NCBI RefSeq assembly: GCF_001548675.1 | Contig: NZ_CP010834.1 | Coordinates: forward strand, 562,001 to 626,000 | Length of the DNA stretch: 64,000 nucleotides | Source: Methanobrevibacter sp. YE315 | Lineage (GTDB): Archaea; Methanobacteriota; Methanobacteria; Methanobacteriales; Methanobacteriaceae | Direction of reading: 5' to 3' | In this document: piece after piece, positions 36,700 to 43,282 of the stretch | How the letters are laid out: every line of letters begins with the position of its first letter | Position numbering within the stretch: position 1 is the stretch's first letter | Notes under the pieces: generated by a model | Told to the model about the DNA's origin: nothing | What the model saw: only the letters and a program-made list of their open reading frames with translations | The model's database searches: none | Position numbers and translations under genes: made by a program

Positions 36700-36914
36700 T
36701 GATGTAGTTAATTCTTTGGGCATATTAATTTAACATTATTTATCATGATTTTGCCATTTTTATTCTCTTTTTGTGAAAATTATTACTTATTTTTATTCTT
36801 ATTTAGTGAATTTTTTAAAATTAAATACTATTAATTTATATAAGAGATTTGAGGAAAATATAAATTGTATTAATTAAATTTAATTATATTTCTAAAATTT
36901 CATAGGAGTTCGTT
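36700..36914 (+). promoter_or_regulatory. Promoter region of the DUF3100/PrpD operon
   Basis: TTTATATAA at 36835-36843 is a good TATA box; transcription would start near 36868. An AGGAG Shine-Dalgarno lies at 36904-36908. No ORF is supported upstream of that. Confidence 0.55.
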
Positions 36915-37802
36915 ATTATTCCAAACAAGGGAAACGATGGCCATGTTGAGCATATTTATAGGGAAAAAACGGATAAACGTATTCTGAAGAAGAATCCCTG
37001 GAGAGATTACAGATTACATGTTACTGTGCTTATTTTGGTTATTATTGCAGAACTTATTGGAACAATTAAGATTCCTATTACTAAAGACGTGGCAATTACA
37101 ATAATGCCATTAATTTATACTATTATTTTGGGTTTGGCATTTTATCTTATAAAGCCTATAAAATGGATTCAAAGAAAACAAGCCCGTATTGCTGAAGGGG
37201 CAATGATGCTTTTCATCGGTGTTCTAATTGCAAAACTGGCTGTTTCTAGCGGACAATCCATTGGATTAATTTTTGATATGGGTCCTGCATTGATTTTACA
37301 GGAAATAGGACACTTGGCAACAATTTTAGTACTCCCGATAGCATTGCTTTTAGGATTTAAAAAGGAATCAATCGGAATGACAAATTCTATTGGTCGTGAA
37401 CCGAATGTTGCTGTTGTCGTTGATAGGTATGGATTCAATTCCCCCGAATCAAGAGGAGTATTCGCTATATTTATTATAGGTACTGTAATTGGTACAATCT
37501 TCATCAGTTTCCTTGTAACATTTTCACTATCATTCCTGCCGTTACATCCTTATGCGTTTGCTATGGCCAGCGGTGTAGGTAGTGCAAGTATGAATGCAGC
37601 GGCTATCGGACCAACTCTTGCGGCATTTCCTGGAATGGAAACTCAAATTGAAGCATTTGCAGGCTTCAGTAATCTGCTTTCCTTCTGTGTTGGAATTTAC
37701 ATTGTGATATTTATTGCCTTACCTTTAACAGAAAAAATATATGATTGGTTAGAACCTAAAATTGGAAGAGATCCCATAACAGCCAAAAAGGAGGATGAAT
37801 AA
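36915..37802 (+). CDS. DUF3100-type membrane protein, probable transporter subunit with non-ATG start
   Basis: The protein of about 295 residues has a cytosolic N-terminus and about eight helices. A central GREPNVAVVVDRYGFNSPES and the glycine-rich MASGVGSASMNAAAIGP give it the look of an organic-acid carrier. The in-frame sequence upstream of GTG 37026 (REKTDKRILKKNPWRDYRL) is clearly coding, but no ATG, GTG or TTG occurs before the stop at 36903. AGGAG at 36904-36908 places initiation at ATT 36915 or ATT 36918. GTG 37026 would remove 37 residues. The stop overlaps the next start by one base. The DUF3100 name is from memory. Confidence 0.72.
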   Translation: MIPNKGNDGHVEHIYREKTDKRILKKNPWRDYRLHVTVLILVIIAELIGTIKIPITKDVAITIMPLIYTIILGLAFYLIKPIKWIQRKQARIAEGAMMLFIGVLIAKLAVSSGQSIGLIFDMGPALILQEIGHLATILVLPIALLLGFKKESIGMTNSIGREPNVAVVVDRYGFNSPESRGVFAIFIIGTVIGTIFISFLVTFSLSFLPLHPYAFAMASGVGSASMNAAAIGPTLAAFPGMETQIEAFAGFSNLLSFCVGIYIVIFIALPLTEKIYDWLEPKIGRDPITAKKEDE

Positions 37803-38293
37803 TGCCTGATTTACTTGAAGGGTCTGAAAATGTTTCTGTTCATGGAATCATGAATTGGATACTCTTATTGATAATCTTTTCAATCATTACCGTCATCGGA
37901 AATTATTTGGGCTATAAGCACCCGATTGCCGATTCTTTAGTTGGAATGGCAATTTTATCCATCATTACTCTTATTGGCGTTTGGCTGGAAAGAGAACTTC
38001 CATTTGATATATCTTCAATTTTATACATAAGTATAATCGGTATTGTATTGGCTTATCCCGGAATGCCTACATCAAAGTTTGTATTGTATTATGTTTCTCA
38101 AATTGAACTCCTGTCTATAGTAACAGTATTCTTGGCATATGTCGGTATCGGTATGGGTAAAAGCTGGGATGAATTTAAGGCTTTAGGTTGGAGAGCTATT
38201 GTTATAACAGTTTTAGTTATTGCTGCAACTTATTACGGAGCAGCTATCGTTGCACATATTGTATTGGTTTTAACAGGTGTTCCTGCAGTTTAA
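37802..38293 (+). CDS. Partner membrane protein of the DUF3100-type protein
   Basis: The 163-residue protein has five hydrophobic segments and is translationally coupled to the preceding gene (TAATG). Phrases such as NYLGYKHPIADSLVGMAILS and YPGMPTSKFVLYYVSQIELL suggest a second half of a two-part carrier. I do not recognise a named family. A joint role in importing an organic acid for the following enzymes is inferred from gene order. Confidence 0.65.
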   Translation: MPDLLEGSENVSVHGIMNWILLLIIFSIITVIGNYLGYKHPIADSLVGMAILSIITLIGVWLERELPFDISSILYISIIGIVLAYPGMPTSKFVLYYVSQIELLSIVTVFLAYVGIGMGKSWDEFKALGWRAIVITVLVIAATYYGAAIVAHIVLVLTGVPAV

Positions 38294-38380
38294 AATTATT
38301 TTCTCACATCATCTAATTGATTTTTTTCATAACTTAATAATTTTAATACTACTTTTCACATATATTATTGTAGGTGTTTT

Positions 38381-39790
38381 ATGTTTTTACGAAATATTTC
38401 CAAATTTATATCAAACTATCGCTATGAACAGGCAACTGTAGAATCTTTAACCACTGTTAAAGCTGCTTTTTTAGACTTTTTTGGAGTAACATATAGAGGA
38501 ATGGATGAAGAGGCACCTAATGTAGCTTTAAATACAGTTGATGAAATATTTTCAGGAAAATTTAATTCAAATCTACAGGCTTCCATCATCGGAAGGAAAA
38601 TGAAAACAGACATGTTAAGCGCCGCATTTATAAATGGGGTTGCAGCCCATGTATTGGAATTGGACGATGGTCATAGGGGCGCACAAATTCATTTAGGCGC
38701 AGTGATATTTCCGACAGCCCTTGCAATCTCAGAGGCTTATGACTTAAGTGGAAAGGAATTCCTTGAAGGTGTTATTGTAGGTTATGAAGTTGGAATTCTT
38801 CTTGGCCAGATAGTAAATCCGGAGCATAGGAATAAAGGGTTCCATACCACAGGAACAATAGGGACTTTCATCGCAGGAGCCGTTGCTTCCAAATTACTGA
38901 AGCTCGATGAAAAGCAAACCTTGAATGCTTTAGGTCTATGTGGCACTCAGGCAGCGGGTCTTTTGGAATCAGACCATAGCGGATCTATGGGCAAAGTTTT
39001 ACATGTTGGAAAGGCAGCATATAATGGAATTTTATCTGCACTATTAGCTAGAAACGGTTTTACTGGAAGCGGAACCATATTTGAAGGTAATGAAGGATTT
39101 TTAAAAGCGATGGTTCTTGAAAATACTGATTATGATATTGAAAATTTCTCATTAGAAAATGTTTTAAAAGACATTGGCAAAGTGAGGGTTCGCGATATTT
39201 ACTTTAAGAAATATCCGTTCTGCAGACACCTTCACTCTTCAATAGATACAGCATTAAAACTTAAAGCAAGCATTGGAGATGAATATGATCATATTCAAAA
39301 TATTGCCGTTAAAACATATTCAGTGGCTGCAGAACACAATAATTTTCACCCTAAAAATATAGAAGAGCTAAAACAAAGCCTGCCTTACGCTGTGGCCATC
39401 TCATTGGTAGTCGGCGAGGTCAGCGTTGATTCTATTAACCAGTTAATCGAGTATGGTCTTCTGGATAACTATTCAAGCGTTGATAAGGTAAACAGCATAA
39501 AGAATCTTGCAAATGGAATGATTATCCTTGCTGATGATAAGTTGAATGAATTGTATCCGGCCAAAAGACCATCAAATGTGGTCATTAAGCTAGATGAGAG
39601 CTTTAGAAATGGAATATTCCAAAATCTCACATTGCTGCCGAAAGGCGATTTTGAAAACCCGTTCGAATTGAGGGAACTAATCGACAAGTTCAAGAATCTC
39701 AATCCGCACTATGATGTGAAAAATCTCACAGTTTTGGATTCTCTTGAAGAGTATTCCATGAAATATGTCGTAAGTAAACTAAACGAGTAG
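38381..39790 (+). CDS. MmgE/PrpD family protein (2-methylcitrate dehydratase / cis-aconitate decarboxylase-like)
   Basis: The 469-residue protein has the PrpD-family layout: an N-terminal helical domain with AAFINGVAAHVLELDDGHRG, then GYEVGILLGQ, then the conserved HTTGTIGTFIAGAVASKLL. ALGLCGTQAAGLLES and KYPFCRHLHSS follow, ending in the small lid domain. Members dehydrate 2-methylcitrate, decarboxylate cis-aconitate or racemise iminodisuccinate, so the reaction here is uncertain. GGTG precedes the ATG. It stands five bases before the U32-like gene and belongs to the cluster with a fumarase-like subunit and a citrate synthase-like protein. Confidence 0.87.
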   Translation: MFLRNISKFISNYRYEQATVESLTTVKAAFLDFFGVTYRGMDEEAPNVALNTVDEIFSGKFNSNLQASIIGRKMKTDMLSAAFINGVAAHVLELDDGHRGAQIHLGAVIFPTALAISEAYDLSGKEFLEGVIVGYEVGILLGQIVNPEHRNKGFHTTGTIGTFIAGAVASKLLKLDEKQTLNALGLCGTQAAGLLESDHSGSMGKVLHVGKAAYNGILSALLARNGFTGSGTIFEGNEGFLKAMVLENTDYDIENFSLENVLKDIGKVRVRDIYFKKYPFCRHLHSSIDTALKLKASIGDEYDHIQNIAVKTYSVAAEHNNFHPKNIEELKQSLPYAVAISLVVGEVSVDSINQLIEYGLLDNYSSVDKVNSIKNLANGMIILADDKLNELYPAKRPSNVVIKLDESFRNGIFQNLTLLPKGDFENPFELRELIDKFKNLNPHYDVKNLTVLDSLEEYSMKYVVSKLNE

Positions 39791-39795
39791 ATACT

Positions 39796-40698
39796 ATGGA
39801 AAATACCAAAAAATTTCTTAAAAAAATCGGGATAAATGAAGTTTCAAAAGATTATGCATCAGCCAAATGTTTCAGTGATGGCGGGCAGTACCGTTTTGAA
39901 GTTCCGGGAATCCAATCCCCAAAAACAATGGAGGCTCTTTTGAACGAATCAGCTAAACAGGATATCTTTATCCATAGGGTTACTCAAACCAAGGGAATAA
40001 TGCTTTTAACCGATGATGAAATCAAAGAAATGGTTGATTTAGCTATTGGATATGGATGTGAATTGTTCTTGGCTATCGGACCTAGAGCGACTTATGACAC
40101 TTCCGCTAGCGTTCAAACTAAAGAAGGGGCTAGAATAGGGTATCGCCTTAGGGGATATGACAATCTGGTTTATGCAATAGAAGATGTGAAAAGAGCCTGC
40201 AGACTCGGAGTTCGTGGAATATTGCTTTATGATGAAGGGCTGCTTTGGGTATTAAATAAGATGAGGTCAGAAGGTGAAATCCCTAAAAACACTCATTTCA
40301 AGTTATCCGCTCATGCAGGCCATTCAAATCCGGCATCTGCAAAACTACTTGAAAGCCAGGGGCTCAATTCATTTAATCCAGTAAGGGATTTGCAGATTCC
40401 AATGATTGCCGCCATAAGGGATGCATGTGACATGTCAATTGATCTGCACACTGAAAACCCAAAGTCCACCGGAGGATTTATCAGACATTACGAAGTTCCT
40501 GAATTTATTAAAGTTGCATCTCCTGTTTATCTGAAGACTGGCGGATCTGTTGCTGCAAATCACAACTGGGATACAACTGAAAAAGAAGCCATTGCCCGTA
40601 TAAAACAGGTTTCATTAGTAAAAAGGGTCATTGATGAATATTGCCCTGATGTAATTGCTTCTCCAAAACAATCTAGTGATTTATCAATTCCAGAGTGA
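39796..40698 (+). CDS. U32-peptidase-like TIM-barrel protein
   Basis: The 300-residue protein resembles the barrel of U32-family proteins (LVYAIEDVKRACRLGVRGIL, then FKLSAHAGHSNPASAKLLESQ, then IPMIAAIRDACDMSIDLHTE). In other systems that barrel is used for hydroxylation or peptide modification rather than proteolysis. The cysteine pattern of tRNA/ubiquinone-modifying U32 enzymes is not obvious. It lies between MmgE/PrpD and the fumarase-like gene with gaps of five and four bases, so it is part of the same operon. It could act as a lyase or isomerase on a carboxylic acid, which is inference. Confidence 0.65.
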   Translation: MENTKKFLKKIGINEVSKDYASAKCFSDGGQYRFEVPGIQSPKTMEALLNESAKQDIFIHRVTQTKGIMLLTDDEIKEMVDLAIGYGCELFLAIGPRATYDTSASVQTKEGARIGYRLRGYDNLVYAIEDVKRACRLGVRGILLYDEGLLWVLNKMRSEGEIPKNTHFKLSAHAGHSNPASAKLLESQGLNSFNPVRDLQIPMIAAIRDACDMSIDLHTENPKSTGGFIRHYEVPEFIKVASPVYLKTGGSVAANHNWDTTEKEAIARIKQVSLVKRVIDEYCPDVIASPKQSSDLSIPE

Positions 40699-40702
40699 TT
40701 TT

Positions 40703-41575
40703 ATGGATATATTAGAGGAAATTTCCAGAACCATTATAAATGCATCCACTTCTCTTTCTCAGGACAAACAAAAAGCATTGAAAAGAGCTATTGAAATTGA
40801 AGATAATGAAAATGCAAAATGGGCTTTAACACAGATTTTCGAAAATTATCAGGTAGCTCAAAACACCAGGTTCCCATTATGCGATGATACTGGAATACCT
40901 CACGTTATTATTGAAATTGGTCAAGACAGAGAAATTTCAGGCCAATTGTTAAATCAGATTCATGAAGGCATCGAATTAGGTTTGAATAACCTTCCTGCAA
41001 GACCCATGGCTGTAAAAGGTGATGAAATTGAAAGGATTGAACAAAGCCAAGGTTTGTATGACAAGCCGGGAATGCTTCACCCCGCATCCATCCTGATTGA
41101 TAATGTCCGCGATGAATCTAGTTATAAAAGGGATATTTCATCCGATACTTTAAACATTCATTTTTTACTTGAAGGGGGAGGCCCTGAAATAAGGGCAAAA
41201 ACCTATAGGGTTTACCACAAAAGGTCTTTTGAAAATGTCATCAATACCGCCTGCGATTGGCTTGAGGAATCTTTAAAGATGTTGGGATGTACTCCTTCAA
41301 TTCCCTCAATCGGCATAGGCAGAACACATTTTGAAGCAACATCCCTTCTTCTAAAGTCAATAGCATATGGAAATTTGGATAATCAGAGTGAGTATGAACG
41401 ATACATTACCGATAGATTAAATCAAAGCGGAATCGGACCACTTGGCCTTGGTGGAAAAACCACAGTTTTAGGGACTTATTTGAACATTGGAAATCAAAGG
41501 GCGAGTGGAGTCAGAATAGTTTCCGTCAGACCATCCTGTTTTGTTGAGCCAAGGGTTGCGACATTAAAATTGTAA
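40703..41575 (+). CDS. Class I fumarate hydratase alpha-subunit-like protein without a beta partner nearby
   Basis: The 290-residue protein has FPLCDDTGIPHV (Cys60), LGCTPSIPSIGIG (Cys196) and VRPSCFVEPR (Cys279). These positions fit the three [4Fe-4S] ligands of class I hydratases such as fumarase, mesaconase and tartrate dehydratase. GLGGKTTVLGTYLN is also typical. Archaeal fumarases normally need a beta subunit that carries other active-site residues; none is encoded here. ATG 40703 follows GTGATTTT. Context with PrpD and a citrate synthase-like enzyme suggests hydration of mesaconate-, aconitate- or methylaconitate-like acids rather than ordinary fumarate. Confidence 0.85.
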   Translation: MDILEEISRTIINASTSLSQDKQKALKRAIEIEDNENAKWALTQIFENYQVAQNTRFPLCDDTGIPHVIIEIGQDREISGQLLNQIHEGIELGLNNLPARPMAVKGDEIERIEQSQGLYDKPGMLHPASILIDNVRDESSYKRDISSDTLNIHFLLEGGGPEIRAKTYRVYHKRSFENVINTACDWLEESLKMLGCTPSIPSIGIGRTHFEATSLLLKSIAYGNLDNQSEYERYITDRLNQSGIGPLGLGGKTTVLGTYLNIGNQRASGVRIVSVRPSCFVEPRVATLKL

Positions 41576-41577
41576 AG

Positions 41578-41587
41578 TTTATATATA
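41578..41587 (+). promoter_or_regulatory. TATA box of the citrate synthase-like gene
   Basis: TTTATATATA starts three bases after the upstream stop codon and about 53 bases before the ATG, giving this gene its own promoter. Confidence 0.55.
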
Positions 41588-41630
41588 ATTTTATATTATT
41601 TTTAATTAATTGAACAAAAAGGTATGAAAA

Positions 41631-42431
41631 ATGCAAGAGAATAATTTTAGAGTTAACCCTCATTCTTTAAGAACAGCCATCACTCGTGTTGAAACGGATA
41701 AGGTTGTAACTAGGGGATATAATCAAAGAGACTTAATTGAAAAAATCAGATACAGTGACATGGTCTTTTTACTTTTAAAGGGAAGATTGCCTTCTATTGA
41801 AGAGGGAAGAATCTTTAATCATGTGCTTGTTTCATTTTGTGACCATGGTGTAACTCCACCTAGTACACAAACAGCGCGTCTTGTTGCATCTTCGGGTTCA
41901 CCGATGAACTCTGCAGTTGCAGGGGCATTATTGTCATTTGGACATAAGCATGCAGGCGCCATTGAAAAAGCAATGGATTTGTATCAATCTAAAATTAGTT
42001 CATTGTACATAACTGAAGATTCGGATATTGATAATAAGCAGATTGCAAGTTTGGCTATTGACATTTATAATGAGTATATCGTGGGCGATAAAAAGATTCC
42101 AGGTTTTGGCCATAGATACCATAATGTTGATCCTCGTGCCGATAAATTAATGGAACTGGCTATTAAAGAAGGGTTTGTCGGCCCACATATTAAACTTGCA
42201 TTGGCTGTTGAGGATTTGGCTTATGAAAAGAAACGGATTAGGCTTAATGTGGATGGTGCAAATGCAGCAATTCTATCAGATTTGGGATTCACTCCAGATT
42301 TGGGATTGGGAGTTTTCATAATCGGAAGAGTTCCGGGTATTATTGCACATATTCATGAAGAAAAAATGGATGAAGAGGAATTCAGAAGATTTTGCGATTT
42401 GGACGATATAATTTATCAAAGTGGTAGATAA
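41631..42431 (+). CDS. Short citrate synthase-family protein (citryl-CoA lyase-like)
   Basis: The 266-residue protein is about 100 residues shorter than normal citrate synthases, the size of stand-alone citryl-CoA lyases. Catalytic regions are retained: GHKHAGAIEKAM (first His), GFGHRYHNVDPRADKL (second His) and NVDGANAAIL (Asp). The N-terminal helical region of full synthases is missing. It could cleave citryl-CoA or condense an acyl-CoA with a 2-oxoacid. It has a TATA box at 41578. The nitroreductase start follows one base after its stop, so those two are an operon. Confidence 0.85.
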   Translation: MQENNFRVNPHSLRTAITRVETDKVVTRGYNQRDLIEKIRYSDMVFLLLKGRLPSIEEGRIFNHVLVSFCDHGVTPPSTQTARLVASSGSPMNSAVAGALLSFGHKHAGAIEKAMDLYQSKISSLYITEDSDIDNKQIASLAIDIYNEYIVGDKKIPGFGHRYHNVDPRADKLMELAIKEGFVGPHIKLALAVEDLAYEKKRIRLNVDGANAAILSDLGFTPDLGLGVFIIGRVPGIIAHIHEEKMDEEEFRRFCDLDDIIYQSGR

Positions 42432-42432
42432 A

Positions 42433-42942
42433 ATGGAATTTATAGATGTGATCAGCGAAAGATACAGTGTAAGAGGATATTTGAATAAGGAAGTGGAGCC
42501 GGAAAAACTTGAATATGTTTTAAAAGCAGCCACATTAGCTCCGACAGGCGTTAATTTCCAGCCGTTTAAGGTTTATGTAATCGACACCAAAAAGCATAAG
42601 GAAGAGCTATCAGAAATTTATGGTGCCAACTGGTTTGTTGAAGCGCCTTACGTATTATGTGTTGTTGCACTAAGGGACAAGGCATGGACAAGACCATGGG
42701 ACGGCAAAAACATTGCAGATATTGATGCGACAATTGTAATGGACCATATTATTTTAGCGGCAACTGATGTTGGTCTTGGAACATGTTACATTGGTGCATT
42801 CAAGAAATATAAGGCTCATAAATTCTTAAACTTGGATGAAAACGAAGAACCAGTTTTATTTACTCCATTAGGTTATGGAAATGCCGAACCTCGTGAAACT
42901 CCAAGAAAAGAATTGGATGAATTTGTTGTATATATGGATTAA
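42433..42942 (+). CDS. Nitroreductase family protein
   Basis: The 169-residue protein starts MEFIDVISERYSVRGYLNKE, the family N-terminus that holds the FMN phosphate (R-x-SVR). It continues LAPTGVNFQPFKVYVID and ends LFTPLGYGNAEP. These FMN enzymes reduce nitro compounds, flavins or quinone-like acceptors with NAD(P)H. It follows the citrate synthase-like gene by one base and precedes a small membrane protein by one base. The physiological substrate is unknown. Confidence 0.88.
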   Translation: MEFIDVISERYSVRGYLNKEVEPEKLEYVLKAATLAPTGVNFQPFKVYVIDTKKHKEELSEIYGANWFVEAPYVLCVVALRDKAWTRPWDGKNIADIDATIVMDHIILAATDVGLGTCYIGAFKKYKAHKFLNLDENEEPVLFTPLGYGNAEPRETPRKELDEFVVYMD

Positions 42943-42943
42943 A

Positions 42944-43282
42944 ATGAAACTTTATTTACTTGAAGCAGATAATTCAAAGGATATGGAAAGGATATCTGAT
43001 GAATTATCTCAAAAAAAATTCAAAATTATGGAAGAGGATGATGCATACATATTAATGAGAAAAAGAAGATATGGAAATCCCGTAATCCATGTCATTAGTT
43101 TAATCATTGCATTGGCTTTTTTCAGCCCGTTCATATTTGTAAATGTGGCTTATTTTACTTATTCATACCTTTGGGCATCTCCTCATGCATTAATCACAAC
43201 AGAAAAGGTTGATGATGAGGGCAATCCTTTGGAATTTAGTGATATTGATGAAGTATTGAACAAGGCATATGCTATTCTATAA
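42944..43282 (+). CDS. Small membrane protein, family not recognised
   Basis: The 112-residue protein starts MKLYLLEADNSKDMERISDE directly after the nitroreductase stop. An N-terminal domain of about 50 residues looks like a ferredoxin-fold or DUF-type sensor. Then one or two transmembrane segments (VISLIIALAFFSPFIFVNVAYF) precede an acidic tail. It overlaps the convergent gene by 11 bases. No function is proposed. Confidence 0.65.
   Translation: MKLYLLEADNSKDMERISDELSQKKFKIMEEDDAYILMRKRRYGNPVIHVISLIIALAFFSPFIFVNVAYFTYSYLWASPHALITTEKVDDEGNPLEFSDIDEVLNKAYAIL

Follow-up and report, generated by a model that had tools for sequence, protein, structure and literature searches.

What does a methanogen do with enzymes that recall the 2-methylcitrate cycle? 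The question is raised by seven genes of Methanobrevibacter sp. YE315 that lie on the forward strand of the 64,000-nucleotide stretch analysed here (contig NZ_CP010834.1, positions 562,001 to 626,000; hereafter the window). They encode a DUF3100 membrane protein, a LysO-like membrane protein, an MmgE/PrpD-family dehydratase (PrpD), a U32-like barrel protein (U32L), a divergent fumarase-type alpha subunit (alpha2), a short citrate synthase (CS') and a nitroreductase. An earlier note on this DNA had read them as a pathway in which the membrane pair imports a di- or tricarboxylate that the enzymes convert. We find that the cluster holds the linked members of a module of five components, namely PrpD, U32L, alpha2, CS' and an unlinked fumarase-type beta subunit (beta2). 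The components are conserved, keep their order and are present or absent together; beta2 is linked to the methanofuran gene mfnA, the CS' and Fe-S motifs are kept, and the pocket motifs of alpha2 and beta2 are changed. The module is probably a conserved anabolic set with methylcitrate-like chemistry. In Methanobacteria it may produce 1,3,4,6-hexanetetracarboxylate (HTCA), the acid at the end of methanofuran, which also occurs free as a major solute; we place this assignment somewhat below an even chance.

A conserved enzyme core and its unlinked partner

In the window, the PrpD gene (38381–39790) matches both domains of its family (PF03972, E = 2e-68, N domain; PF19305, 4e-24, C domain). It is followed by U32L (39796–40698), alpha2 (40703–41575; PF05681, 4e-52, 177.6 bits) and CS' (41631–42431; NF004866, 6e-126; PF00285, 4e-43). 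From the DUF3100 gene to CS' the spacing is a 1-base overlap and then 87, 5, 4 and 55 bases, the ATG at 40703 being the start codon of alpha2 that gives the 4-base gap. Open reading frame (ORF) and family (Pfam, NCBIfam) checks thus bore out the genes, order, strand, families and gaps described in the earlier note.

Searches of U32L against Pfam, NCBIfam and PDB sequences (the last with single sequences and with profiles) gave no credible match, and none to the PrpB family. Because of this lack of significant matches, U32L was used as the tracer for the module in genome searches. It was found in 129 of the 152 genomes of the phylum. The 23 negative genomes comprise all 20 of one genus, which we take to be Methanosphaera, and three incomplete assemblies (≤72% complete). 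Outside the phylum, a sample of 396 archaeal genomes held U32L in one genome only, as a distant relative. This relative (42% identical; locus L243, 8840–9787) adjoins two ORFs that by eye look like DapA-type aldolases, near a 4-hydroxybutyryl-CoA dehydratase-like ORF.

When archaeal loci were retrieved with U32L alone, alpha2 adjoined it in 67 out of 74, far beyond chance. Two of the remaining seven stop at a contig edge and five belong to M. filiformis and Methanovirga-type genomes. The order PrpD-U32L-alpha2-CS' is kept in Methanothermobacter-type, Methanothermus-type, M. ruminantium-type and Methanobacterium-like genomes (the Methanothermus fervidus-type and Methanosphaera stadtmanae-type genomes among the relatives are presumably correctly named). 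In M. thermautotrophicus dH (G082), other Methanothermobacter-type genomes and one Methanothermus-type genome, the order reads HTH/TiaS-PrpD-U32L-alpha2-CS' (HTH, helix-turn-helix), and the position of PrpD is unchanged in Methanothermobacter-type, Methanothermus-type and Methanobacterium-like loci (L039–L046, L246–L248). The linkage proposed in the earlier note is therefore real, and it reaches beyond the strain, over Methanobacteria and into Clostridia. The enzyme core is old and near-universal in Methanobacteria, suggesting a role in biosynthesis.

Two departures from this layout were seen. In the Candidatus Methanovirga-type loci L149 (971–1792), L154 and L251, U32L stands outside the cluster, 3' of an apparent nadC (by eye; about 20 bases in L149). 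At L029:9331 and L033:4861, alpha2 and CS' are separated by inserted ORFs of 418 and 455 amino acids that have no relatives in the remaining loci.

Two-part class I fumarases require both an alpha and a beta subunit. The beta partner was overlooked in the earlier note; its gene lies elsewhere in the genome and, in many genera, shows linkage to mfnA. Among 13 genomes tested, all nine that bear the module have two fumarase alphas, a canonical one scoring 327–353 bits and the cluster copy scoring 151–195 bits, and the four Methanosphaera-type genomes have a single alpha and lack the citrate synthase family altogether. The beta subunit was tested in eight genomes: the six with the module carry beta2 as a second, divergent copy, and the two of the Methanosphaera type have one beta. 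A strong match to a beta2 profile (<1e-60) is present in 119 of the 129 U32L-positive genomes, the exceptions being mostly draft assemblies, and both U32L and beta2 are missing from all 20 Methanosphaera-type genomes. The co-absence thus covers U32L and beta2 in 20 genomes and alpha2 and CS' in four; PrpD was not searched for. In the genome of the window, beta2 is located far from the cluster (G000:C1:1901402–1901890).

The second pair shares with class I fumarase and L-tartrate dehydratase the alpha and beta folds, the three cysteines that ligate the Fe-S cluster, the GKG lysine and the PT(T/S)S loop of beta. It differs from class I fumarase in that CQDTG has become CDDTG, TRxN is lost, GFGSENN has become GGGPEIRAKTYRV, RDxAH has become GRDAxLP and PTTSxRM has become PT(T/S)SNK, and in that alpha2 and beta2 are encoded apart in archaea. 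The fumarase motifs CQDTG, TRxN, RDxAH and TTSxRM are replaced in every aligned module member, archaeal or clostridial; alpha2 retains its Fe-S ligands, and its substrate motifs are altered. Overall, alpha2 is 28% identical to canonical alphas and 47% identical to the clostridial module alphas, and beta2 scores 78–89 bits on TIGR00723 against a cut-off of 145. Taken together, the changes in both pockets add arginine and lysine, as might be expected for a larger and more acidic substrate. A literature search on fumarase residues found nothing.

Chemistry of the module

The module resembles the 2-methylcitrate cycle (PrpC, PrpD, aconitase/AcnD and PrpB) in combining a synthase for a CoA thioester and a 2-oxo acid, a PrpD-family dehydratase, an Fe-S hydratase and a TIM-barrel lyase. 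A citrate synthase family member (PF00285) is present, although CS' is of the short citryl-CoA lyase type. In contrast to the cycle, the hydratase slot is taken by a heterodimer of the class I fumarase type instead of aconitase, the lyase slot by U32L instead of PrpB, and PrpD scores only 31–41 bits on PrpD equivalog models. The likeness, with unusual families in the hydratase and lyase slots, had been pointed out in the earlier note and agrees with all our findings. The kind of pathway is known; what is new is that two of its slots are filled by other families.

The individual enzymes fit this picture to different degrees. The closest solved relatives of PrpD are IDS epimerase and cis-aconitate decarboxylases, and it fails the equivalog models (TIGR02330, 30.6 bits vs 458; NF042438, 40.8 vs 950). 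CS' scores 419 bits on NF004866 (PRK06224 subfamily; cut-off 245), its nearest PDB relative is citryl-CoA lyase (6hxp), and it has retained the catalytic His/His/Asp motifs FGHKHAG, GFGHRY and NVDGA. It shares size, fold family and these motifs with citryl-CoA lyase (Ccl) and the C-terminal module of ATP-citrate lyase; unlike for the former, no citryl-CoA synthetase gene was recognised in the loci read. A second CS'-like gene occurs in two Methanothermobacter-type genomes (G073:C1:1480232–1480930 and G078:C1:259655–260335), about 6–7 kb from the canonical fumarase alpha.

U32L is 300 amino acids long. Its Peptidase_U32 (PF01136) score of 18.8 bits is below the gathering cut-off of 22.4. An AlphaFold2 model (pLDDT confidence 86.6–88.1) predicts a TIM barrel, for which the best Foldseek matches were class II aldolases, the U32 protein Mk0906 and PrpB (E 1e-7 to 1e-6). 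With these barrels U32L shares conserved His, Asp, Glu and Lys positions, but it has no significant sequence match to them and a TM score of only about 0.5. The comparison of predicted structures supports a TIM barrel only and is not decisive for function.

By analogy with the cycle, CS' would join a CoA thioester to a 2-oxo acid, most likely 2-oxoglutarate, and PrpD would dehydrate the adduct. The Fe-S hydratase formed by alpha2 and beta2 would then rehydrate or isomerise the dehydrated adduct. U32L, as a putative metal-dependent aldolase or lyase, may make or break a second C-C bond, in the place that PrpB has in the methylcitrate cycle.

Methanofuran, HTCA and the clostridial loci

The gene mfnA encodes tyrosine decarboxylase and is the first gene of methanofuran biosynthesis. 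Outside g1, the genus of the window, beta2 adjoins mfnA in 12 of 17 genera tested, including the Methanothermobacter, Methanothermus and Methanobacterium types and several Methanobrevibacter-like ones. The neighbour was identified by TIGR03812 (552–572 bits). With a single exception, beta2 is located 3' of it and shares its strand, and in the deep lineages L070 and L072 the two genes overlap by 4 bases. Known methanofuran biosynthesis (MfnA-MfnF) differs from what is proposed here in covering the core and first glutamate only. In M. thermautotrophicus Marburg, HTCA (1,3,4,6-tetracarboxyhexane) has been described both as part of methanofuran and as one of the major solutes (PMC1224877), and the enzymes adding the terminal methanofuran moieties were unidentified as of 2021 (PMC8141765). 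We found the module in M. thermautotrophicus dH and all Methanothermobacter-type genomes; the HTCA report concerns the Marburg strain. HTCA consists of two glutarate units linked through their alpha carbons, and aldol joining of a glutaryl unit and 2-oxoglutarate, dehydration and reduction would therefore yield it. Our literature search returned no paper naming hexanetetracarboxylate together with methanofuran, the only HTCA statement being that in PMC1224877, and none describing the combined gene set.

A genome scan returned 466 U32L relatives. Beyond Methanobacteria they reach into Clostridia, at about 65% identity in the scan. In the family to which Acetatifactor muris belongs the distribution is sporadic (12 of 397 genomes). 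We read 17 clostridial loci, in which U32L is 60–66% identical to the archaeal protein. Each holds U32L, a CitE-like C-C bond lyase (PF15617) and adjacent beta and alpha genes. PrpD was seen in 14; of the remaining three, two are cut contigs and one is L191. The clostridial alphas and betas, which were not used in the search that found the loci, are 47% identical to archaeal alpha2 and beta2 and only 26 and 33% identical to the canonical subunits. The CitE-like lyase probably replaces CS'. Several loci also contain sugar-nucleotide, aminotransferase, ATP-grasp ligase and glycosyltransferase genes. A wider reading, a real possibility although somewhat less likely than the HTCA assignment by itself, is that the five proteins form a previously unassigned pathway to HTCA for the end of methanofuran and that the version with the CitE-like lyase provides gut Clostridia with this acid, or one akin to it, for their surface glycans.

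Several observations weigh against HTCA as the product. Beta2 and mfnA are apart in the window's own genus, and elsewhere a wider block, rpl16-ppsA-mfnA-beta2, is also conserved, so the two genes may adjoin through inherited synteny. We found no conserved reductase for the module. The Methanosphaera-type genomes keep mfnA and mfnB and thus presumably make methanofuran without it. Furthermore, Clostridia are without methanofuran, and the 60–66% identity of U32L points to the same reaction there; the product common to both groups may then be a smaller acid than HTCA. The absence of U32L from Methanosphaera-type genomes and from all but one of the archaeal genomes outside the phylum in the sample above would count for or against HTCA only according to the side chains of these archaea. 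An argument from co-loss of the module with methanofuran in Methanosphaera was dropped, since the mfn loss it predicts is contradicted by mfnA and mfnB; what we retain is the co-loss of the module members among themselves. As a separate observation, in the record of M. thermautotrophicus dH (L256), the frames of beta2 and ppsA are broken, perhaps by sequencing errors in an old genome; they are intact in the relatives read.

The alternative that fares best, a serious possibility although clearly short of even, is that methylcitrate-type chemistry yields another 2-oxo or hydroxy acid, converting an acyl-CoA to a 2-oxo acid of the same length, with no relation to methanofuran. In Clostridia the acid would go to a decarboxylase and reductase or to a dehydrogenase and be attached to glycans; Methanobacteria would use it otherwise. 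The close identity of U32L between the two groups is in its favour. So are the clostridial partners, all of them enzymes that use 2-oxo acids or compounds derived from these: a phosphonopyruvate-decarboxylase-like thiamine pyrophosphate enzyme in 12 of the 17 loci, usually adjoining U32L and accompanied by an aldo-keto reductase, and an Ldh2-type dehydrogenase in three others. Such an acid would leave unexplained the linkage of beta2 to mfnA and the retention of the module in every genus of Methanobacteria except Methanosphaera.

Accessory genes and wider meaning

The membrane pair bears on the import and breakdown of a di- or tricarboxylate, a reading of the module that we consider unlikely. 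The DUF3100 gene (36915–37802; PF11299, E = 6.9e-85) and the LysO-like gene (37802–38293; PF03956, 1.9e-4; 21.5 bits, slightly below the cut-off of 23.8) lie directly 5' of PrpD in the window, 87 bases away, and also in most other members of the genus, which is in favour of that reading. The two halves form a single ORF of 421 or 451 amino acids in L245 (2315) and L249 (14051), suggesting that the pair is one transporter, and the pair is duplicated in L029 and L035. However, it is missing from the Methanothermobacter, Methanothermus-type, Methanobacterium-like and G084 loci and from L034 and L037, where the enzymes remain, and relatives of LysO are exporters, judging from the family name. A near-universal core with a dispensable transporter argues against an optional catabolism, and on this point we depart from the earlier note. 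The exact start of the DUF3100 gene is uncertain, because its conserved N-terminus continues 5' of the GTG at 37026, as far as about 36915, and that stretch contains no ATG, GTG or TTG.

It is very improbable that alpha2 and CS' are an ordinary housekeeping fumarase and citrate synthase brought together by accident, as their family names and the NCBIfam label of CS' as citryl-CoA lyase might suggest, since every cluster-bearing genome tested also has a canonical alpha, and a canonical beta where tested, the altered pocket motifs are common to the clostridial module, and U32L and beta2 are gained and lost together. Equally improbable is a phosphonate-type pathway with U32L acting on phosphonopyruvate-like acids: the clostridial decarboxylase does score above the TIGR03297 cut-off (424 vs 312.5 bits), but no phosphoenolpyruvate mutase was recognised in the loci read, the decarboxylase is missing from five clostridial loci and the archaeal cluster, and the PrpD, fumarase and citrate synthase/CitE families act on carboxylates.

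The nitroreductase-family flavoprotein (42433–42942; PF00881, 1.8e-28), whose ATG at 42433 is 1 base from CS', may be a C=C reductase. It is restricted to Methanobrevibacter-type lineages, being near the module in L244, L245, L249 and L250. As the core reductase it was rejected, since it is missing beside the module in the Methanobacterium-like loci L246–L248 and none was recognised in Methanothermobacter- or Methanothermus-type loci. The transporter and the nitroreductase are lineage add-ons. A small conserved ORF of no known family, g8 (42947–43282), comes 3' of the nitroreductase, and the two stay together in Methanobrevibacter-type genomes. The TATA boxes said to bracket the set exist as TTTATATA octamers at 36835 and 41578; with 13 in the window and 12.1 expected by chance they are uninformative on their own, and the promoter argument was dropped.

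Methanofuran is the first C1 carrier of methane formation. Its core has been assigned to MfnA-F and its terminal-acid enzymes have not, and for the latter the module provides a few candidate genes open to testing, carried by M. smithii, M. ruminantium and Methanothermobacter among others. The module also explains why there is another, divergent alpha/beta pair to which annotation would give the name fumarase, and it connects a step in making a methanogen cofactor with accessory loci, most of them for glycans, in gut bacteria. If HTCA is indeed the product, the methanofuran of Methanosphaera is predicted to bear a different tip. Should this assignment fail, a widely conserved, unassigned polycarboxylate pathway still stands.

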